From positions 1-35,532 of IMG/VR virus record IMGVR_UViG_3300003690_000164: a stretch of 35,532 nucleotides of DNA. The stretch is one strand, 5' to 3'. Shown in pieces: positions 9,715-29,365 of the stretch. Position numbers and translations under genes: made by a program. The stretch is from a virus. Below the pieces are notes generated by a model, which worked only from the letters and a program-made list of their open reading frames with translations, made no database searches and was not told the DNA's origin. The stretch's first letter is position 1; the number at the start of each line of letters is the position of its first letter.

Positions 9715-10053
9715 ATGGGTGATCAATTCAGCGGTGACCTGTCACGCAATGAAGTGGAGATGGATCTCAGTAAGTTCCTTGAGATTATGAAGGACAACTC
9801 GGATCTCAAGGATAAGATTCGTGAATTGCAGATACATCTTGCCAAGACCATTGATGCGTGGCGTATCTTTCCTCGCGTGTTCGTCGGGGTATATATCTAT
9901 CTGCTGTACGCGGTGGTGATGTGGTTTATGACCATAGCAGAACCAAACTTGGAGCAAGCTGGTCTGGTGTCGGTTGTTGTGGGCGCTATGGCAGCAGTGT
10001 TTGGAATATATGCCGGGACATCTCAGACAAAAAATTTCAAGGGTGAGGGTTAG
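9715..10053 (+). CDS. Two-TM small membrane protein, holin-like
   Basis: 112 aa. The N-terminal ~45 residues are charged and helical (LSKFLEIMKDNSDLKDKIRELQ). Two hydrophobic segments follow (about 52-72, F-V-G-V-Y-I-Y-L-L-Y-A-V-V-M-W-F-M, and 82-100, GLVSVVVGAMAAVFGIYAG), separated by a short turn. I recall similar small two-TM proteins in marine phage genomes, sometimes labelled holin. No lysis activity can be read from the sequence. It stands first in a run of three membrane genes linked by one-base overlaps, and no endolysin is next to it. Confidence 0.65.
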   Translation: MGDQFSGDLSRNEVEMDLSKFLEIMKDNSDLKDKIRELQIHLAKTIDAWRIFPRVFVGVYIYLLYAVVMWFMTIAEPNLEQAGLVSVVVGAMAAVFGIYAGTSQTKNFKGEG

Positions 10054-10334
10054 TGAGCGAGGTTTTTACTCTGGTTGCCGATGTAGGCTTTCCCATAGCG
10101 ATGGCGTTGATCTGTGGGTTCTTTATTTTCCTCACGATCAAATATATTTTAGAGAGCGTTATCGGCCAAGTGAACGGTATTCACATAATCGTGCATGGTT
10201 TAGACAATCGCGTTAAGACGATGAATCACGACATCATTCGCTTGGACGCAACCATGTGTTCAGTACTAGGTATTCGCCCTGACCTGAACAGGATTGCAAG
10301 GGCTGATGGGAAGGAAGATGCGCGGCGTGACTAA
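10053..10334 (+). CDS. Single-TM small membrane protein (copy 1 of a pair)
   Basis: 93 aa from a GTG sharing one base with the upstream stop (TAGTG), with GGTGAGGG just ahead. One N-terminal membrane segment (V-G-F-P-I-A-M-A-L-I-C-G-F-F-I-F-L) is followed by a charged helical tail with HDIIRLDATMCSVLGI. The next gene has the same design and shared residues (GFPI, then DNDIIRLQQKLDTV), so the two look like a tandem duplication. They could be holin/antiholin-type partners or spanin-like accessories, but this is inference. Confidence 0.6.
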   Translation: MSEVFTLVADVGFPIAMALICGFFIFLTIKYILESVIGQVNGIHIIVHGLDNRVKTMNHDIIRLDATMCSVLGIRPDLNRIARADGKEDARRD

Positions 10335-10585
10335 TGGATATTGCATCAGCGATCAACGAATATGGGTTTCCCATCGTCATGGCGGTGGGCCTGCTGTACA
10401 TGATTTACTTCATTTGGCAGTTCATCACCCATCAGATAAAAAAGAAACTGTCAGAGGCGAACACAACCCTAGTTGCCCTCATAGACAGGATTCGTATGCT
10501 TGATAATGACATCATAAGATTACAACAGAAATTGGACACGGTGATTGAACTGCGTGAGTTGAAAGAAAATGATGCGACTGATTAA
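10334..10585 (+). CDS. Single-TM small membrane protein (copy 2 of a pair)
   Basis: 83 aa. The ATG overlaps the previous stop by one base (TAATG). The N-terminal anchor is Y-G-F-P-I-V-M-A-V-G-L-L-Y-M-I-Y-F, then a basic stop-transfer (QIKKK) and a coiled-coil-like helix (TLVALIDRIRMLDNDIIRLQ). It is a diverged sister of the preceding gene. csgF starts 16 nt before its end, so the membrane genes and the curli-type genes are translated as one unit. That overlap is the main reason to treat the curli genes as part of the phage and not as an assembly join. Confidence 0.6.
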   Translation: MDIASAINEYGFPIVMAVGLLYMIYFIWQFITHQIKKKLSEANTTLVALIDRIRMLDNDIIRLQQKLDTVIELRELKENDATD

Positions 10586-11033
10586 GCTGTTCTTTTTGCT
10601 ACCCGCAGTTTGCGCTGCTTCTGATCTGGTGCAAACATTTAAGAATCCCAGCTTCAGCGGCGTAGGGGCATCTGCTCACTATCTCACGATTGATGAACAA
10701 GAGCGCACCCGAAAAAAGGCGATTGCCGATGACATTGAAGCCAAGTTGAATGAAATAGAACGGGATGCTGATAACACGACGCTGGCTAAATTCCTACGCA
10801 ACATTGAAAGCCGGATTTTCTCGCAGTTGTCACGTGATCTGGTGGAGGCATTGTTTAACTCTGAAACGGGCGGCACAGGCGGTAGCTTTGATTTGGAGGG
10901 CAACATCATTCAGTTTATCAACACAGGCGATGAGATCATCCTGACCATCACCGACATAGACGGAGGCATAACCGAAATCAGGATTCCCGTAGGGACGTTC
11001 GGCATATGCTCAACAGACGATTGCGGTATTTAA
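10569..11033 (+). CDS. csgF: CsgF-like curli assembly protein
   Basis: 154 aa. A signal peptide (MMRLIKLFFLLPAVCAA) is followed by the CsgF hallmark near the mature N-terminus: QTFKNPSFSG, matching the family's FRNPNFGG. Further on are a helix F-L-R-N-I-E-S-R-I-F-S-Q-L and a C-terminal beta region GNIIQFINTGDEIILTITD then GITEIRIPV, which corresponds to the YIVDI...LNVTD...TSTIQV part of E. coli CsgF. In bacteria CsgF sits in the neck of the CsgG outer-membrane pore and helps place the nucleator subunit at the surface. Here csgG overlaps its 3' end by 28 nt, as expected for a pore-and-partner pair. Confidence 0.85.
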   Translation: MMRLIKLFFLLPAVCAASDLVQTFKNPSFSGVGASAHYLTIDEQERTRKKAIADDIEAKLNEIERDADNTTLAKFLRNIESRIFSQLSRDLVEALFNSETGGTGGSFDLEGNIIQFINTGDEIILTITDIDGGITEIRIPVGTFGICSTDDCGI

Positions 11034-11881
11034 TTATATGCGTTGCGATTACCTGCGTTGCCGGATGCGCTGCCATCGGGTCAGTTCGCGGGTGCAGGGA
11101 CACACGCTCTCAGATTGCCGGTGAGCGTGACTACGGCGGCATTGAATGTCCAGAGGGGCCAAGGATTGAACGCCCCTCGCTGAAGGCTCTGGTGGATTTA
11201 CCGCCGCCATCACGCAAGGCTGTTGTTGCCGTTTACTCGTTCCAAGACCTCACGGGACAGCGCAAGTCATCTGACAACATGGCGTTGTTCAGCACGGCTG
11301 TAACTCAAGGCGCAGATTCATTCTTGATTGATGCGCTTCAGAGTGCAGGCGGTGGAACATGGTTCACCGTCGCAGAACGCGGGCATCTGGATCACCTCAC
11401 GCGGGAACGCCAACTCATCATTTCCACGCGCAGCAGTTACGATGGCGAGGGTGACAACAGGTTGCGCCCGCTGCTGTTTGCGGGGCTGATCATGGAGGGT
11501 GGTGTTGTCGGCTTTTCAAGCAACCTTAGAACGGGAGGGTTAGGTGCCAGATGGCTTGGTATCGGGGTGAGCAACCAGTATAGAAGGGATGAAATCGTAA
11601 TTTCATTGCGGGCCGTGCTTGTTCAGAGCGGAGAAATTCTCCTAAATGTCATGACGAGCAAAACTATCTTCTCGGCAGCAAGCGGGATTGATCTGTTCCG
11701 ATTTACAGAGAACGGCACTGAGCTAGTTGAAGTTGAGTCCGGTGTCACCCGTAACGAAAGCTCTGGGTACGCTGTAAGGTCAGCGATTGAAGCTGCCGTT
11801 TATGCGATAATTATTCAGGGCATAGAAAAGGATGTCTGGGATTACCAAGCCCCAGAGGAGGAACCCAATGCGATGGATTAG
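11006..11881 (+). CDS. csgG: CsgG-like outer-membrane curli secretion channel
   Basis: 291 aa. A lipoprotein signal ends in the lipobox V-A-G-C with Cys21 as the lipidation site. The body shows the CsgG line in order: VAVYSFQDLTGQ, FSTAVTQGADSFLIDAL, FTVAERGHLDHLTRERQLI, AGLIMEGGVVGFSSNLRTGG, GARWLGIGVSNQYRRDEI, S-L-R-A-V-L-V-Q-S-G-E-I and NVMTSKTIFS. These match E. coli CsgG almost block for block. CsgG forms a nonameric outer-membrane pore that secretes unfolded curlin. An insert of about 20 residues with two Cys follows the lipobox. The curlin-like gene starts 14 nt before its stop. CsgE and CsgC are not found in the window. Confidence 0.92.
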   Translation: MLNRRLRYLIICVAITCVAGCAAIGSVRGCRDTRSQIAGERDYGGIECPEGPRIERPSLKALVDLPPPSRKAVVAVYSFQDLTGQRKSSDNMALFSTAVTQGADSFLIDALQSAGGGTWFTVAERGHLDHLTRERQLIISTRSSYDGEGDNRLRPLLFAGLIMEGGVVGFSSNLRTGGLGARWLGIGVSNQYRRDEIVISLRAVLVQSGEILLNVMTSKTIFSAASGIDLFRFTENGTELVEVESGVTRNESSGYAVRSAIEAAVYAIIIQGIEKDVWDYQAPEEEPNAMD

Positions 11882-12554
11882 CATTTTATTATGGGTGGTT
11901 GCGTCTACGGTTCATGGTGCAAATAACCTGATTTACGTGACACAGAGCGGAGGGTCATCAGCCCTGACGATGAATTTAACACAGACCGGAAATTCAAACG
12001 TCATTGGCACGAATAATGCGCGTGTATCCCTGACCGGAACGGGCATGACCGTGGACGTTGACCAGATCGGCGACAGCAATGTCATAGCTGCGACCGTGGC
12101 CCAATCTAACTCAACATCATTTACGCTGCGCAGTGTCGGAGATTCAAATACGCAAACGCTCGCGGTAGGAGCGACAGGCGATGCACAAGGCTCGGATTTT
12201 GATTTCGCCGCGGTTGGCGACTCCAACGTACTCGTTTATACCCAAGGGGCAGCAGCCACGGCAACAAGCGCAGATACTGACATCGTGATTGCCGGAACCA
12301 GCAACAACCTCAACATAGTCACAGAGGTGGTTGGTGGAACGAATAATATTGATATTGATGGGGACGGGAACGATTGGGACAGTACTCAGACGGGAAATGC
12401 AAATCATTCAATAACGGCTGAAATTTCTGGAAGTACCAACAACATTGATATTTCTCAGAGTAATTCTGGTGGCTCTACCAGCGGTATCGTTAGCCTGATT
12501 GCAACGACCAGTGGCGGCACGATTGACATAGACCAGTGTACAAGTGGCTGCTGA
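11868..12554 (+). CDS. Curlin-repeat (CsgA/CsgB-like) secreted amyloid subunit 1
   Basis: 228 aa from the ATG at 11868, chosen because GAGGAGGA lies just upstream and a signal peptide (MRWISILLWVVASTVHGA) follows. The mature protein is Asn/Thr/Ser-rich with repeated strand-turn units that carry Q-x-G-x-S-N or G-D-S-N turns (LTQTGNSNVIG, VDQIGDSNVIA, AAVGDSNVLVYTQG, TQTGNANHSI, ISQSNSGG). These are the spaced Gln/Asn/Gly positions of curlin repeats. It ends DIDQCTSGC. By analogy it is an exported, self-assembling fibre or nucleator subunit; whether it is A-like or B-like cannot be told. csgG overlaps its start and the FecR gene overlaps its end. Confidence 0.82.
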   Translation: MRWISILLWVVASTVHGANNLIYVTQSGGSSALTMNLTQTGNSNVIGTNNARVSLTGTGMTVDVDQIGDSNVIAATVAQSNSTSFTLRSVGDSNTQTLAVGATGDAQGSDFDFAAVGDSNVLVYTQGAAATATSADTDIVIAGTSNNLNIVTEVVGGTNNIDIDGDGNDWDSTQTGNANHSITAEISGSTNNIDISQSNSGGSTSGIVSLIATTSGGTIDIDQCTSGC

Positions 12555-13624
12555 TAGTTTTACCCCTTGTTGCCTACGGAGAAGTAGGCTCAATCACTGA
12601 ACTGCGTGGCATCGGCGAAGTCATTCGCCAAAACAACCCTGATTCTTTGACAGCCCAGCTTACGCTTGGCATTGCGAGCATGGATAACGTGCGCACCGGC
12701 AATGGACGCTTGGCAGTGCGGTTTCTGGATGACAGTGTTGTACGGCTGACGGAGCGTTCCAGCATTATCATTGACGAATACATATTTGACCCAGACCCTG
12801 CAAAAAGCAAACTCGCACTAAAAATGGCGAGCGGCACGGCGCGATTCCTAACCGGCGCACTGGGCAGAATCAGAAAAGAGAACGTCACTATAACGACCTT
12901 AACGGCAACCGTGGCAATTCGCGGCACCGATTTTACGGTAACTGTTTCAGAGATTGGCGAGACACTGGTCATTCTTTTGCCATCTGCACTGGGCGATGGC
13001 AGCGCAAGCGGCGAGATTACCGTCACTTCAATGGCCGGAGTGGTTGTGCTTGACGAGCCATTTCAAGCAACGATGGTTAGCGTTTCAGAGACCCCCCCCA
13101 CGCCCCCAGTGGTTCTGTCAAACATGACCTTGGCGTTCATAGATAATCTGCTGATCGTCAACCCGCCAAATGAAATACAGGAAGCGATAGAGGAGCAATC
13201 GGCAACATCTACGAATGTGCTGGACGTGGATTTTCTTGAGGAAACAGAACTGGATGAATCTGAATTGGATGAGGATGAACTGGGAGATGAGATCGGGCGG
13301 CTGGATATTGACCTGCTGGCGGTGGATTTTTTAACGGACATTTTGGATGCGGTTTCAGTCGCTGCCAAGGGAAAGCAGCAAGTTGCTGAACTGGATGGCG
13401 TCAAGATTGAAGGGTTGCTTCCGGGATTTGACCCCGTTGCACAGACGTATGTGCTAGTGGAGGGGGAGGTGCTGACCATTTTCCGAAGCGTTGAGAACAC
13501 CGTTGACTTGGAGCTTGATAAAAGCGGCGCATACAACATCAGCATCCTCACGGCTGGCAGGCAGATTGAGGCAACGGTCAACGGAGGAGGCGGTAATGCG
13601 ATTACTATTGTTCAGTCTAATTAG
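12536..13624 (+). CDS. FecR-domain periplasmic protein
   Basis: 362 aa from a GTG start 19 nt before the end of the curlin gene. A signal peptide (MYKWLLIVLPLVAYG) is followed by a FecR domain at about residues 17-145: EVGSITELRGIGEVIRQN, LGIASMDNVRTGNGRLAVRF, DDSVVRLTERSSIIIDEYIF, SGTARFLTGALGRI and TATVAIRGTDFTVTV. There is no N-terminal cytoplasmic sigma-regulator part, so it is the free-standing type. The C-terminal half has a very acidic stretch (LEETELDESELDEDELGDE) and a beta region. Such FecR proteins are often found beside CHASE2-type cyclases, as here. A sensing or scaffold role is inference. Confidence 0.8.
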   Translation: MYKWLLIVLPLVAYGEVGSITELRGIGEVIRQNNPDSLTAQLTLGIASMDNVRTGNGRLAVRFLDDSVVRLTERSSIIIDEYIFDPDPAKSKLALKMASGTARFLTGALGRIRKENVTITTLTATVAIRGTDFTVTVSEIGETLVILLPSALGDGSASGEITVTSMAGVVVLDEPFQATMVSVSETPPTPPVVLSNMTLAFIDNLLIVNPPNEIQEAIEEQSATSTNVLDVDFLEETELDESELDEDELGDEIGRLDIDLLAVDFLTDILDAVSVAAKGKQQVAELDGVKIEGLLPGFDPVAQTYVLVEGEVLTIFRSVENTVDLELDKSGAYNISILTAGRQIEATVNGGGGNAITIVQSN

Positions 13625-14384
13625 TGTATCCGTTTGCTGGGCCGGGAATAACTCGGTGGAAGTCCAGACAAAGGGAACAGGCACAGCCATATATATTGAT
13701 CAGATTGGGTCTACGAATACAGCGCGTGTCTGGTGCGGCCTGTCCGGCGGCACTTACGACACGCACACCTGTAGTTCTGCCGTGATTGACATTGACCAGA
13801 CAGGCACCGGCAATCTGGCAAAAGCGTATTCTCAGTACACTAATCACACCGGCAATGAATACACGATCACCCAGGAGGGCGACAATTCCACCGGGTACAT
13901 TGATGCCGACGAAGATGATAATGAGATGACCGTAACCCAAACAGGCGATAACTTTTATGCGGAAATCTACATGAGCGGTGACGATAACGTGTATGAAATA
14001 ACCCAAACAGGCGATTCGCATTATGCGAAATTCTATGCCTTTGGGGATGACTCTAGCTGGACGGTCACGCAATCGGGAACGGGTGGTGCGCATAATGCTT
14101 ACATCAAGTCCTGCGGAAATTGTAATCATAACGATGCCACGATCACGCAGTCCGGTAGTGGAGCCAAAAACGGCGACATAGAATTCAGGAATAATCCTGC
14201 TGACAATTCAACGGTCAACCTGACGCAATCAGGGGATGGTGCTCATGTGGGTAACATTCTGGTCAAGCAAGGAAATTACACGGTGAACGCCACCCAGACC
14301 GGGACAATCGTCAAGGGCTATACAGTAACCCTGGACTGTACCTCATCCTGTGACAAGACGGTCACAGTTAATCAATATGATTGA
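13596..14384 (+). CDS. Curlin-repeat secreted amyloid subunit 2
   Basis: 262 aa from the ATG at 13596, selected for GGAGGAGG upstream and an immediate signal peptide (MRLLLFSLISVSVCWAGNN). At least eight repeats carry the pattern T/D-Q-x-G-x-x-N/H-x-A/Y (YIDQIGSTNTA, DIDQTGTGNLAKAYSQ, TITQEGDNSTGYID, TVTQTGDNFYAEIY, EITQTGDSHYAKFY, TVTQSGTGGAHNAYI, TITQSGSGAKNGDI, NLTQSGDGAHVGNI). The spacing is more regular than in subunit 1, so this is the better candidate for the major fibre protein. Cys pairs occur in several turns. It starts 29 nt before the FecR gene ends. The many Asp residues would make the fibre acidic and perhaps calcium-binding (inference). Confidence 0.85.
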   Translation: MRLLLFSLISVSVCWAGNNSVEVQTKGTGTAIYIDQIGSTNTARVWCGLSGGTYDTHTCSSAVIDIDQTGTGNLAKAYSQYTNHTGNEYTITQEGDNSTGYIDADEDDNEMTVTQTGDNFYAEIYMSGDDNVYEITQTGDSHYAKFYAFGDDSSWTVTQSGTGGAHNAYIKSCGNCNHNDATITQSGSGAKNGDIEFRNNPADNSTVNLTQSGDGAHVGNILVKQGNYTVNATQTGTIVKGYTVTLDCTSSCDKTVTVNQYD

Positions 14385-14411
14385 TCATATGAGATGTAGT
14401 CAATAGGCGCA

Positions 14412-16196
14412 TTGAAAATCCTGCTCCCAATTTTGCTGGCGCTGTTGTTGCTGCGGGTGTTCGATCCGTTTCCGGTGGAGACCCTTCGGCTTAAATATTT
14501 CGATACGCTCTTGACCCTCAAAGAGCCCGTCCAGAGCGAATCCGTTTCCCTATATAACATTGACGAGGACGCATTAGCCGAGGGTGGTCAATGGCCCTGG
14601 CCCAGGCAGCAACTGGCAGAGCTTAATCGTCAGTTACTCGATGCGGGTGCTGTAGCAATCGTTTACTCGGTGTTGTTTCCGGAGCCCGACCGCTTTGGCG
14701 GTGATGCAGCCTTTGCCGAGAGCATGGCTGAAATTCCCACCTTCCTCTCGGCCGTAGCCACCACCGACACGAGCCGGCAACAAGGCTGGCATATCGGGGT
14801 GGCTAAGCTCGGTCCTGTGAATGAACACGCTTTAAGCTACCCAGGGATCCTGCCCAATGTGCCCGTGCTCCAGGCAGCGGCCGCCGGCACCGGGATTGTT
14901 ACCACGGCCCCGGAGGTCGATGGCCTGGTCCGCAGGGTGCCTATGCTGGTGAGGGTTGGGGAGAGCCTCTACCCGGCGCTGGGGCTGGATGTCCTGAGAG
15001 GGCTGGCGGGTGACCCCTCCTACCAGGCAAAAGCCGGTCAGAGCGGCATACAGTCGGTCAGGGTGCCTAATTACGCCACGATCGAGACCGACCAGGCTGG
15101 CAGGGTGTGGGTGGACTGGAGTACGACGTTTTCACCAAAGCCCCTGGCAGGCACCATCGTCTTTGTGGGGGTGACGGCAGCGGGCGTTTCCCCGCTTATA
15201 CCGAGCCCACGCAATTTGATCCACTCACACCAGCTCCAGGCCACTTTATTTGAGACTCTTCTCAATGGCACCTCACCGATTCGCCCGGACTGGGCGCTGG
15301 GTGCTGAGATATTGGTGATCCTGATTTTGGGCATTGTGACAGCTTGGTCAGTGCGTTCTTTGCCTGTATTGGCTGTCCCAGTAGGGGTCTTGGTGGTTGG
15401 CGCTCTAGCGGCCTCCTGCTCAGTCTGGGGCTATTTACGCCTCGGAGTGTTGGTTGATGCGGCGTGGCCAGTGTTCTCGAGCCTGGTGGTTGGGGGAACG
15501 GGTATGGCTCAACGTATGATCAGCGAATACCGGCAGAAGCTCCAGATCAAAGGAATGTTCGGGACGTATGTCTCCCCCAAGCTGGTGCAGCAATTGGTGG
15601 ACGATCCAAGCCTGATGAAATTAGGCGGTGATACCAAGACCATGAGCTTCCTGTTTGCTGACATCGTGGGGTTTACGCCCATCTCCGAGCACTTCAAAAA
15701 CAACAACGATCCACAGGGTTTGGTCACCCTCATCAACCGCTTGCTGTCCGCCTTAACCGAAGTGGTGCTGTCCCTGGATGGAACCATAGACAAGTACATG
15801 GGCGATTGTGTGATGGCTTTCTGGGGTGCTCCTGTGGACTGTGATAACCATGAGGAGCGTGCCGTGATTTGTGCAACGCTTATGCTGGAGGCGCTTGAAC
15901 GCCTAAACGAGGAGCTCGAATCGGAGGGGTTGCCTAAGCTAGGGCTGGGCGTAGGTCTGAATAGTGGAAGGTGCGTCGTTGGGAATATGGGTGGTGAGCA
16001 ACGCTTTGACTTCAGTTGTGTCGGGGATAGCGTGAACGTGGCTGCCAGATTGGAAGCGAAAAGCCGTAGCTATACTGAAAACGTCCTGATCGGAGAACAG
16101 ACCGCCAAGGCTGTGCCGGGTTTAGTCCGGCGTCTTGATTCAATTCAAGTTAAAGGGAAAGAGGAACGGTTAGAAGTTTATACATTGCGTAACTAA
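14412..16196 (+). CDS. CHASE2-domain class III adenylate/guanylate cyclase
   Basis: 594 aa from a TTG start. An N-terminal membrane segment (residues 2-16) leads into a periplasmic CHASE2 sensor (about 20-290; LKYFDTLL, NIDEDALAEGGQWPWPRQQL, then IVYSVLFPEPDRFGGD). Three membrane segments follow (about 296-317, 318-340, 345-364), then a catalytic domain (about 405-590). Metal-binding Asp417 (FADIVGFT) and Asp465 (KYMGDCVMAFWG) are present, Lys461 favours ATP, and the N-x3-R transition-state pair is Asn542/Arg546 (VNVAAR). All key residues for an active enzyme are there. It should make a cyclic nucleotide in response to a periplasmic signal, possibly via the neighbouring FecR or curli proteins (inference). 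Confidence 0.9.
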   Translation: MKILLPILLALLLLRVFDPFPVETLRLKYFDTLLTLKEPVQSESVSLYNIDEDALAEGGQWPWPRQQLAELNRQLLDAGAVAIVYSVLFPEPDRFGGDAAFAESMAEIPTFLSAVATTDTSRQQGWHIGVAKLGPVNEHALSYPGILPNVPVLQAAAAGTGIVTTAPEVDGLVRRVPMLVRVGESLYPALGLDVLRGLAGDPSYQAKAGQSGIQSVRVPNYATIETDQAGRVWVDWSTTFSPKPLAGTIVFVGVTAAGVSPLIPSPRNLIHSHQLQATLFETLLNGTSPIRPDWALGAEILVILILGIVTAWSVRSLPVLAVPVGVLVVGALAASCSVWGYLRLGVLVDAAWPVFSSLVVGGTGMAQRMISEYRQKLQIKGMFGTYVSPKLVQQLVDDPSLMKLGGDTKTMSFLFADIVGFTPISEHFKNNNDPQGLVTLINRLLSALTEVVLSLDGTIDKYMGDCVMAFWGAPVDCDNHEERAVICATLMLEALERLNEELESEGLPKLGLGVGLNSGRCVVGNMGGEQRFDFSCVGDSVNVAARLEAKSRSYTENVLIGEQTAKAVPGLVRRLDSIQVKGKEERLEVYTLRN

Positions 16197-24747: not shown

Positions 24748-24784
24748 ATGTCACCTATTTACATTTCAAACCTACATCTAATAT

Positions 24785-24914
24785 ACGATTCAGGACGAGT
24801 TTTATTAGAAATAAATTAGCCCATACTTAGTAAACAACTCAGAACGTATTTCATTAGAAATAAATTAGTCCTACCTAGTAAACGATTCAGGACACAAATC
24901 ATTAGTCAGTAAAA
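24785..24914. repeat. Three imperfect tandem repeats of ~49 bp
   Basis: Units start at 24785, 24834 and 24882 (the last is partial). Each opens with AC-R-A-C/T-TCAG-R/A-ACG-like sequence, then CATTAG or TATTAGAAATAAATTAG, and ends TAC-Y-TAGTAA. Units 1 and 2 share AGAAATAAATTAG exactly. The repeats occupy the gap between the start at 24747 and a 30-aa gene ending at 24902, overlapping its last codons slightly. They may be binding sites (iterons, operators) or a replication or transcription control element. Copies differ by scattered changes, so they are not a recent duplication. Confidence 0.75.
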
Positions 24915-24994
24915 TACCAAACCACCAGCACCGGGAGCAAAATAACGCCCAGCGAAAAAACCGGTTCCACCCAGAAATTCAAGAAGTTAAGCAT
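24902..24994 (-). CDS. 30-aa single-TM peptide
   Basis: The ATG at 24994 shares its A with the stop of the upstream gene (TGATG), and GGGGG lies about 10 nt ahead. The product is almost all membrane segment: it starts MLNFLNFWVEPVF, runs through a hydrophobic V-I-L-L-P-V-L-V-V-W-Y-F and ends TD. The stop-start overlap and hydrophobic run support translation. Such peptides in phages can affect the host envelope, lysis timing or exclusion, but no function can be given here. Confidence 0.55.
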   Translation of the reverse strand: MLNFLNFWVEPVFSLGVILLPVLVVWYFTD

Positions 24995-25821: not shown

Positions 25822-26685
25822 TTAGTGTCTTTGATCCAATGAGTCCAGTTGTTTGGCCCAGCGTTGCTTGGGCACGATCGGAGAATGATCGGATCGAGCT
25901 CTTGATGGACGGCTCCAGCTGCCGCCGCGACTGGGCTTGCCATCGCGTCGCCAGCGGGCATAGCGCAACGACCGGCCTGATTCCTGTTGTGCCAGGGTGT
26001 AGGTGATGATCTTGGAATAGCCACGCCTGGCAGCCTCTTCAGCTGCGGCACGATAGCCCAGGCTGGCGGCCTTCCAGGTGAGTTTGGGGTTCAGTGAATG
26101 ATCAATGCACAGCCGGTTGACTTCGCACACAGCGCGGTGGTCGATCTTTCGAGCCACGGGCCGGCCTACCCAGATGATGGCTATCAGTTCTGGTCCATTG
26201 AAAACAGCATGGCCCCACAGCCAACCCGGAGGAGCCTGGTTGTGGCGGTGATGATCGGTGATGAATTGCTTGGCCACTTTTTGGCGGACTTCACCGGAGG
26301 CCCAGGCATGATTGGTTGAATCACCTCCGAGCAGCTCAATGCTCAGTCCGTAATCGATCTTGAACGGGTGCTCGTGAATAGACTCGGTGGATGATTCAAA
26401 ATAGAATTGCCGGCCGGCGCCTGATTCCTGGGCAAGCAGTTGGCCGCACTTGGTGTTATTGAGCAGGAAATCCCAGCCATCATCTTCACTGATTGCTGTG
26501 ATCAGGTCCTGCAATGCCTCACAACAAGTGCCCCAGGTAAAGTTGGTGTCCCTGACGGTCTCAGAGAGCTCGGGCTCGATGTCATGGTCAATGAGGTACA
26601 GCGGCAGATTCTTTTCACCGCAATACGGACATGGGGCATCAAGAGGACTGTGCAACCAATCCAAATCGTTTAGTTCAGCGCGCAC
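25822..26685 (-). CDS. XF1762/Mom-like GNAT with N-terminal zinc-ribbon
   Basis: 287 aa from a GTG at 26685, 11 nt inside the upstream gene. Residues ~18-60 hold CPYCGEKNLPLYLIDHD and a TCCEAL pair, likely a metal-binding module. The second half (HRHNQAPPGWLWG, GRPVARKIDHRAVCEVNRLC, AASLGYRAAAEEAARRGYSK, ITYTLAQQESGRSLRYARW, GGSWSRPSRAR) is the XF1762-type GNAT-like domain, related in layout to phage Mu Mom, which modifies adenine to resist restriction. DNA modification is a reasonable hypothesis, but XF1762 proteins have no proven reaction that I know of. Confidence 0.65.
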   Translation of the reverse strand: MRAELNDLDWLHSPLDAPCPYCGEKNLPLYLIDHDIEPELSETVRDTNFTWGTCCEALQDLITAISEDDGWDFLLNNTKCGQLLAQESGAGRQFYFESSTESIHEHPFKIDYGLSIELLGGDSTNHAWASGEVRQKVAKQFITDHHRHNQAPPGWLWGHAVFNGPELIAIIWVGRPVARKIDHRAVCEVNRLCIDHSLNPKLTWKAASLGYRAAAEEAARRGYSKIITYTLAQQESGRSLRYARWRRDGKPSRGGSWSRPSRARSDHSPIVPKQRWAKQLDSLDQRH

Positions 26686-29214: not shown

Positions 29215-29355
29215 GCTATATATAGCTATAGCTATATATAGCTATCAAAGCTATAAGCTATATCTAGCTTTGACTATATATAGCTTCTTTTTTTTTTTAG
29301 TTATATTACTAGTCTAAATACAGCTTTAGCTATATTATAGCTATAGCTTGATATA
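29215..29355. repeat. AT-rich AGCTATA repeat block with perfect 28-bp palindrome
   Basis: 29215-29242 reads the same on both strands (GCTATATATAGCTA plus its mirror). It is followed by a hairpin CAAAGCTA/TAGCTTTG (29246-29253, 29265-29272), another CTATATATAGC (29274-29284), a run of T and more AGCTATA units to 29355. Such DNA melts easily and can extrude cruciforms. An origin or a packaging signal is possible; nothing in it codes for protein. Confidence 0.6.
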
Positions 29356-29365
29356 GCGTTTTACG

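Follow-up and report, generated by a model that had tools for sequence, protein, structure and literature searches.

The window, the whole 35,532-nucleotide stretch of marine phage DNA that was analysed, carries a curli module in the order CsgF-CsgG-curlin-FecR-curlin-cyclase, with all genes on the plus strand, as assigned from Pfam matches and synteny (Table 1). The initial annotation had placed a FecR protein between two curlin genes, followed by a CHASE2-class III cyclase, and matches to PF04773, PF07012 and PF05226 with PF00211 bear this arrangement out. A Pfam search gave no match for the first curlin-like subunit (11868-12554), and CsgE is absent from the module. Judged from sequence, the open frames, domain matches and conservation of the locus are far beyond chance, and the window is related to HTVC023P-type podophages, from which it differs in its higher GC content of about 50% and in a terminase 54-56% identical to theirs.

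Table 1. Coordinates of the curli module and adjoining small genes in the window.
Feature	Position	Strand	Evidence and remarks
h2, small protein (93 aa)	10053..10334	+	possible start GTG; looks like one membrane helix and a coiled coil
h3, small protein (83 aa)	10334..10585	+	looks like one membrane helix and a coiled coil
CsgF	10569..11033	+	PF10614, E 7.6e-15; phrog_35372
CsgG outer-membrane curli pore	11006..11881	+	PF03783, E 3.1e-46; placed in tree
Curlin-like subunit 1	about 11868..12554	+	likely ATG 11868; repeat-like sequence; syntenic with first curlin of HTVC008M and Melnitz
Exported FecR-domain protein	12536..13624	+	GTG start; hydrophobic N-terminus; PF04773, E 3e-10
FecR curlin-kernel tail N354-A-I-T-I-V-Q360	13595..13615	+	motif in last 10 residues
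Curlin subunit 2	13596..14384	+	likely ATG 13596; Curlin_rpt PF07012, three stretches, E 5.9e-17
CHASE2-class III cyclase	14412..16196	+	TTG start; CHASE2 PF05226 (5e-36) and Guanylate_cyc PF00211 (5e-19)

The cyclase is predicted to consist of an N-terminal helix, a periplasmic CHASE2 domain, three membrane helices and a cytoplasmic cyclase domain. CHASE2 covers residues 8-308 and, as in CHASE2 sensors, lies between the N-terminal helix and the three membrane helices, which the AlphaFold2 model (mean pLDDT 88) places at residues 4-17 and 295-383. The predicted catalytic domain superposed on CyaC at about 1.7 A. Alignment with solved class III cyclases identified D417 and D465 as the metal aspartates, N542 and R546 as the transition-state pair and K461 as the base-specifying lysine position, which is Glu in the guanylyl cyclase Cya2. 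No catalytic residue was lost on alignment, upholding the earlier claim that these positions are intact. Across 133 viral cyclases, D417 was kept in 133, K461 in 131, D465 in 132, and N542 and R546 in 130 each, with most exceptions being incomplete sequence rows; at the position of Asn542 the Melnitz enzyme carries Ser. The second specificity position, S535, is Ser in 93 and Thr in 38 of the 133 rows. The enzyme thus has the residues of a class IIIb adenylate cyclase: two metal aspartates, the Asn/Arg pair, and Lys with Thr or Ser. It shares its catalytic fold and residues with the class IIIb enzymes CyaC (1wc1) and CyaB (3r5g), from which it differs in its CHASE2 domain and membrane anchor and in having Ser for Thr at the second specificity position. 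The cyclase is under purifying selection as estimated from alignments with those relatives near enough for measurement, which gave a dN/dS of about 0.08-0.12 at dS at or beyond 1. It looks intact and adenylate-specific, with Lys461 paired with Ser535, and this membrane-bound enzyme probably makes cAMP.

Numerous viral contigs share this gene order, as do two lineages of isolated phages. HTVC008M (KC465899) has the window's order, also without CsgE, at 40% identity for the cyclase, 48% for CsgG and 37% for FecR, and the methylophage Melnitz (PMC9004378, MZ577097) has it as well; the cyclases of these two phages form a clade separate from that of the window cyclase. FecR lay upstream of the cyclase in all 32 cyclase-fetched viral loci with enough upstream DNA, and the cyclase followed FecR in 46 of 48 loci fetched with FecR. 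The two proteins vary in likeness independently: compared with one relative (L005) the window is 84% identical in the cyclase and 51% in FecR, and compared with another (L084) it is 73% identical in FecR and 35% in the cyclase. By these comparisons the cyclase is exchanged among similar cassettes, whole or by domain, yet retained; such exchange speaks against tight coevolution at a FecR-CHASE2 interface. The view that a cyclic-nucleotide enzyme is rare in phages holds for annotated phage records, with a cyclase match in 8 of 50,697, but not for the sea, where phage curli modules are abundant and a relative of the cyclase is encoded in 438 stretches of viral contigs. Nor is the combination new, since FecR and adenylate cyclase were already reported by Wittmers et al. 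2022 (PMC9599517) in pelagiphage curli modules, which are carried by HTVC023P-type podophages and pelagimyophages. What is added here to published work is the FecR tail, chromosomal Caulobacteraceae cassettes, the swapping of the cyclase and the lack of support for a histidine kinase.

The predicted structure of FecR comprises a FecR beta domain (residues 18-181), a linker (182-262) and a second beta-rich domain (283-360), and the protein ends in a curlin-type strand. The published curlin kernel is N-x-psi-x-psi-x-Q, and repeat 5 of CsgB has been implicated in CsgF binding (PMC10192328). Each of the 127 distinct viral FecRs had the motif [IV]x[IVL]xQ within its last 10 residues, where 2.06 such proteins were expected; 80 of the 127 tails have the strict kernel and 43 more begin it with Ser. 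Among 1838 ORFs of these viral contigs the motif was found in 121 FecRs, 114 curlins and 19 others, several of which resemble curlins too. Outside viral FecRs this type of C-terminus is, by motif count, almost confined to curlins, and it was found in 0 of 36 cellular FecRs without curli. As an ending common to all viral FecRs it is new relative to published work. The Curlin_rpt Pfam model matched 0 of 37 FecR members, for which one half-repeat may be too short; we do not call FecR a curlin, because its tail is a single half-repeat without such a match. We also asked whether the tail merely reflects the overlap of FecR with the start and ribosome-binding site of curlin 2, and ruled this out because all 27 FecRs without an overlapping downstream gene start keep it. 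In the window, the GGAGG of the curlin-2 ribosome-binding site codes part of a FecR Gly run.

We propose that the phage type VIII secretion (curli) module of the window includes a signalling branch of its own, which would link curli export or assembly to cAMP, a reading we hold at somewhat short of an even chance. The components are present as read from the DNA: CsgF with the CsgG pore, a pair of curlin-type subunits, an exported FecR and a CHASE2 adenylate cyclase whose class IIIb site is intact. FecR would reside at the pore or in the periplasm. Its C-terminal strand would attach to curlin subunits, to the end of a fibre or to the gate formed by CsgF and CsgG, and the cyclase would read the FecR domain through its periplasmic CHASE2 domain; the domain predictions support a placement in which FecR and CHASE2 can meet in the periplasm. 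Curlin export or assembly would then change cAMP in the infected cell. A phage-encoded cAMP receptor was dropped as a candidate when no cNMP-binding protein was found in 12 viral records, and we assign the action of cAMP to host receptors because none was found in the phages searched; our search of the literature found no report of cAMP receptors in Pelagibacter. The initial annotation had offered the state of curli export as a possible cue. The curlin-like C-terminus lends that cue independent support and suggests that the FecR-cyclase pair senses fibre export, while the mechanism is one that we infer. The more specific form of the proposal, in which FecR enters the curli pathway by its amyloid tail and gates the CHASE2 cyclase with its FecR domain, converting export or assembly into cAMP, is possible but rather unlikely. 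If true, amyloid biogenesis would be coupled directly to a second messenger in phages and a Caulobacteraceae lineage. The tail gives a tangible physical clue that FecR is part of the fibre pathway, and with it a connection between amyloid export and cAMP can be put to the test in a laboratory host.

Alternatively, FecR may be no more than a structural component of the curli machine, anchoring or nucleating the fibre as CsgB does, with its tail as template or tether; the cyclase would then be a separate cAMP-raising effector answering to its own CHASE2 cue. The tail is indeed the same in kind as the C-terminus of the nucleator CsgB (AIRVTQR in E. coli), and the cyclase is swapped independently of FecR. 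However, the cyclase nearly always follows viral FecR, and the adjacency of FecR and a CHASE2 cyclase recurs in cells without curli, as their gene neighbourhoods indicate, both in Alphaproteobacteria and in other bacteria. FecR lay within 500 bp of the cyclase at 23 of 80 cellular cyclase loci, two of the 23 being Caulobacteraceae curli loci. FecR-CHASE2 kinase operons also exist: a Burkholderia biofilm operon (PMC5192318) likewise has an exported FecR-domain protein adjoining a CHASE2 sensor enzyme, although its FecR has a LysM domain, its output is a histidine kinase and it lacks curli. We consider a purely structural FecR with a separate cyclase unlikely.

In the published reading of Wittmers et al. 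2022 (PMC9599517), the curli genes are under the transcriptional control of an iron-responsive FecR acting together with a histidine kinase and the cyclase. The FecR fold does resemble the cell-surface signalling domain of PupR (periplasmic domain, 6ovk match, E 2.8e-4), with no match to the PDB by sequence search, and like FecR/PupR regulators the window protein has a periplasmic FecR domain. It differs from them in lacking an anti-sigma domain and a cognate ECF sigma factor: in the model its N-terminus is a signal-peptide-like helix with strands from residue 18, and Sigma70_r2 was not found in five records of the window's phage type, some of them fragments. HATPase_c was likewise not found in the window (itself a fragment), the L005 and L010 records, HTVC008M or Melnitz, the five records covered by this search, and domain searches of h2, h3 and neighbouring upstream ORFs gave no histidine-kinase domain. 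The published upstream histidine kinase is, on these searches, not supported in the window or the two isolates, and we regard transcriptional control by an iron-responsive FecR as improbable.

Equally improbable is a role of the CsgG-CsgF pore in lysis timing, as proposed for Melnitz in a study that also noted an absence of clumping (PMC9004378), with FecR and the cyclase part of that clock and the small upstream proteins acting like holins. Genes for small membrane proteins, h1-h3, do lie directly upstream of the cassette, where the ORFs encode 83-115 aa; h2 has a homologue at the equivalent position in HTVC008M and Melnitz, and 64 of 66 viral loci have h2 or h3 on their upstream side. Yet no holin family reached the cut-off for these proteins, the domain search of h3 giving only a weak, sub-threshold YvrJ match, and the Melnitz argument rested on missing curlin genes, whereas the deposited Melnitz genome has curlins with repeats in its annotation, and such curlins were found in the window. 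Host DNA mistakenly joined to the phage, conceivable in that bacterial genomes carry related FecR-cyclase pairs, has a negligible probability and was excluded by the equal order on many contigs and isolated phage genomes and by single contigs bearing both terminase and cassette, one of 60 kb combining a 90%-identical terminase with an 84%-identical cyclase.

Full-length matches to the curli-type FecR were found only in G001 among 385 alphaproteobacterial genomes and only in G001 and G002 among 249 family genomes, and these two match by construction because both sequences are in the query profile. Five other alphaproteobacterial curli loci, about 19.5 kb each, showed neither FecR nor cyclase. 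Two Caulobacteraceae MAGs (L244 and L281) carry a chromosomal CsgF-CsgG-curlin-curlin-FecR-cyclase cassette with a curlin-type FecR tail, differing from the window in that FecR follows both curlins and housekeeping genes lie on both sides; h2 and h3 were not found in these cassettes. The CsgG of both MAGs branches within the phage CsgG tree, which reopens the published account of one-way transfer from Alphaproteobacteria to phages.

The kind of system found here, a FecR gene and a CHASE2-class III cyclase gene among curli genes, is already published. Podo- and myophages of Pelagibacter carry CsgF, CsgG, CsgA/B, FecR and adenylate cyclase, and the same study covers expression of these phage curli genes and describes an alphaproteobacterial origin of the module with later transfer between phage families (Wittmers et al. 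2022, PMC9599517). By tblastn, cyclase, CsgG and FecR co-occur in Pelagibacter phage HTVC008M and four Melnitz methylophages, and gene order in HTVC008M and Melnitz is identical to that of the window. A relative of the cyclase is encoded in 438 IMG/VR stretches; FecR and CsgG were present at all 32 cyclase-fetched loci with enough upstream DNA, and the cyclase lay downstream of FecR at 46 of 48 FecR-fetched loci. The window, a 35,532-base IMG/VR virus record whose right end falls within the portal gene, is a relative of HTVC023P-type podophages, since its terminase shows 54–56% and its portal about 48–50% identity to the proteins of HTVC027P, HTVC023P and 023Pt_psg01. With about 50% GC, it adds a higher-GC lineage to the known carriers. 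The parts worth following are a curlin-type FecR tail, chromosomal cassettes and cyclase swapping, for which we found no published account, though an earlier report may exist.

Features of the window
Feature	Position	Strand	Remarks
h1-h2-h3-CsgF-CsgG-curlin 1-FecR-curlin 2-CHASE2 cyclase, in order		+	overlaps mostly small
LPD38 protein, 1599 aa	4032-8831		about 37-45% GC, against roughly 50% for the genome
h1-h3, three small genes upstream of CsgF	9715-10585	+	membrane-protein-like look
FecR start	GTG 12536	+	19 bases before curlin 1 end
Curlin 2 start	likely ATG 13596	+	within FecR gene
CHASE2 cyclase start	TTG 14412	+	downstream of curlin 2
AT-rich direct repeats (three, 44 bases each) and GCTATATATAGC palindromes	24779-24919 and 29215-29358
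Mom-like DNA modification protein	25822-26685		phrog_1384, E 6.6e-18

The initial annotation had reported FecR and an intact CHASE2 cyclase among curlin genes, an observation that was confirmed, and alignment with solved enzymes and 133 viral sequences bore out every cyclase residue it had named. The protein matched both CHASE2 and Guanylate_cyc domains. In its model (pLDDT 88) a single N-terminal helix precedes the CHASE2 domain, and three helices separate the latter from a catalytic domain that resembles CyaC. The metal ligands are D417 and D465, the transition-state pair is N542 and R546, and K461 aligns with the base-specifying Lys, a position at which the guanylyl cyclase Cya2 has Glu. 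The second specificity position is Ser535 (Ser in 93 and Thr in 38 of the 133), and the essential residues are nearly invariant across the viral set. By sequence the active site is intact, and cyclase activity is predicted. The dN/dS of about 0.1 is only rough because dS is at or past saturation. Two natural variants were seen: VIT replaces the IDK of others in one viral cyclase (L013), with loss of Lys461, and Melnitz has Ser at the Asn542 position.

All 127 distinct viral FecRs carry the strand [IV]x[IVL]xQ at the C-terminal end, compared with 2.06 in shuffles, with the Q one to three residues before the stop. The exact curlin kernel, N-x-psi-x-psi-x-Q (PMC10192328), occurs in 80 of them, and Ser replaces Asn in 43. 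Among 1838 distinct ORFs of at least 120 aa in contigs with viral FecRs, tail bearers were 121 FecRs, 114 curlins and 19 others, several of which resemble curlins. E. coli CsgB, ending in AIRVTQR, has the tail form as the viral FecRs do, whereas E. coli CsgA does not. None of the 36 FecRs taken from cellular loci without curli genes has the tail, a rough control given that several are either short or long multidomain ORFs; Caulobacteraceae FecRs adjoining curli genes carry it. The tail codons of the window overlap the curlin 2 start, but a by-product of this overlap was rejected, as the tail is kept in 27 of 27 FecRs without an overlapping downstream start. The Pfam curlin model did not detect the tail, so we do not call FecR a curlin.

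The cyclase has been exchanged among relatives. Between the window and one viral locus (L005), identity is 84% for the cyclase, 51% for FecR and 57% for CsgG; with another (L084), it is 73% for FecR and 35% for the cyclase. Two further viral loci, L085 and L088, share FecRs at 95% and CHASE2 halves at 66–92% per 50-residue segment, and their cyclases fall to 36–56% from the membrane helices onward. This is a natural output-domain swap that left FecR and the CHASE2 half similar, and active-site residues are retained in the replaced catalytic half of L085. Retention of the cyclase despite exchange argues that its activity matters, and the exchange itself argues against a strict pairing of FecR with CHASE2.

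Module content, conservation, the intact active site and the FecR tail are established by sequence. The initial annotation's proposal, that the phage alters host second messengers on a periplasmic cue, is supported in part. FecR would work in the curli pathway via its tail and may signal to CHASE2; cAMP would then act on host receptors, since no cNMP-binding domain was found in the 12 viral records searched. Alternatively, FecR could be purely structural, like CsgB, with the cyclase independent.

A second rival, the published reading, takes FecR for an iron regulator. FecR has a signal-peptide-like N-terminus. In its predicted structure the FecR domain has a fold akin to the periplasmic part of PupR and is followed by a linker of low confidence and then by another beta-rich domain. 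The anti-sigma segment is absent from the window's FecR, and a search of records of its phage type turned up no sigma factor; the name 'regulator of iron transport' is therefore inherited from E. coli FecR. The FecR model also gave a short Foldseek match to 5ix9, titled a cell surface anchoring domain (63 columns, 1.2 A, E 0.05). The Melnitz idea of lysis timing, a third rival, assumed that curlins are absent, but the deposited Melnitz genome has annotated, repeat-bearing curlins. The published 'histidine kinase' (PMC9599517) is unsupported in the records searched, a set outside that paper's nine genomes: no HATPase_c domain was found in the window, two relatives, HTVC008M or Melnitz, and the genes upstream of CsgF encode 83–115 aa. 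In the window these are holin-like by eye only, with all family matches below cut-off.

In bacterial genomes, FecR lay within 500 bp at 23 of 80 cyclase loci. CsgF and CsgG were absent from 21 of these; the other two, Caulobacteraceae MAG contigs L244 and L281, hold the complete order CsgF-CsgG-curlin-curlin-FecR-cyclase at about 5.9–12.0 kb of the locus. Genes for glycosyltransferases, a TonB receptor, acyl-CoA dehydrogenase and methylmalonyl-CoA mutase flank these cassettes, which are therefore likely chromosomal, with the caveat that both contigs come from MAGs. In a cyclase tree built by a quick method (SH-aLRT support only), 30 phage and the two Caulobacteraceae proteins formed one group (100) apart from other cellular cyclases. 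CsgG likewise grouped phages with Caulobacteraceae (99/94) against E. coli and five other alphaproteobacterial curli loci, from which FecR and cyclase are absent. On these groupings the composite cassette probably arose once. The Caulobacteraceae CsgG pair is nested within the phages (97/93), and phages alone formed one group in no bootstrap tree. The cellular copies may be phage-derived or reflect repeated cell–phage exchange, the trees allowing either direction.

Elsewhere in the window, the AT-rich direct repeats and GCTATATATAGC palindromes are possibly regulatory or replication sites.
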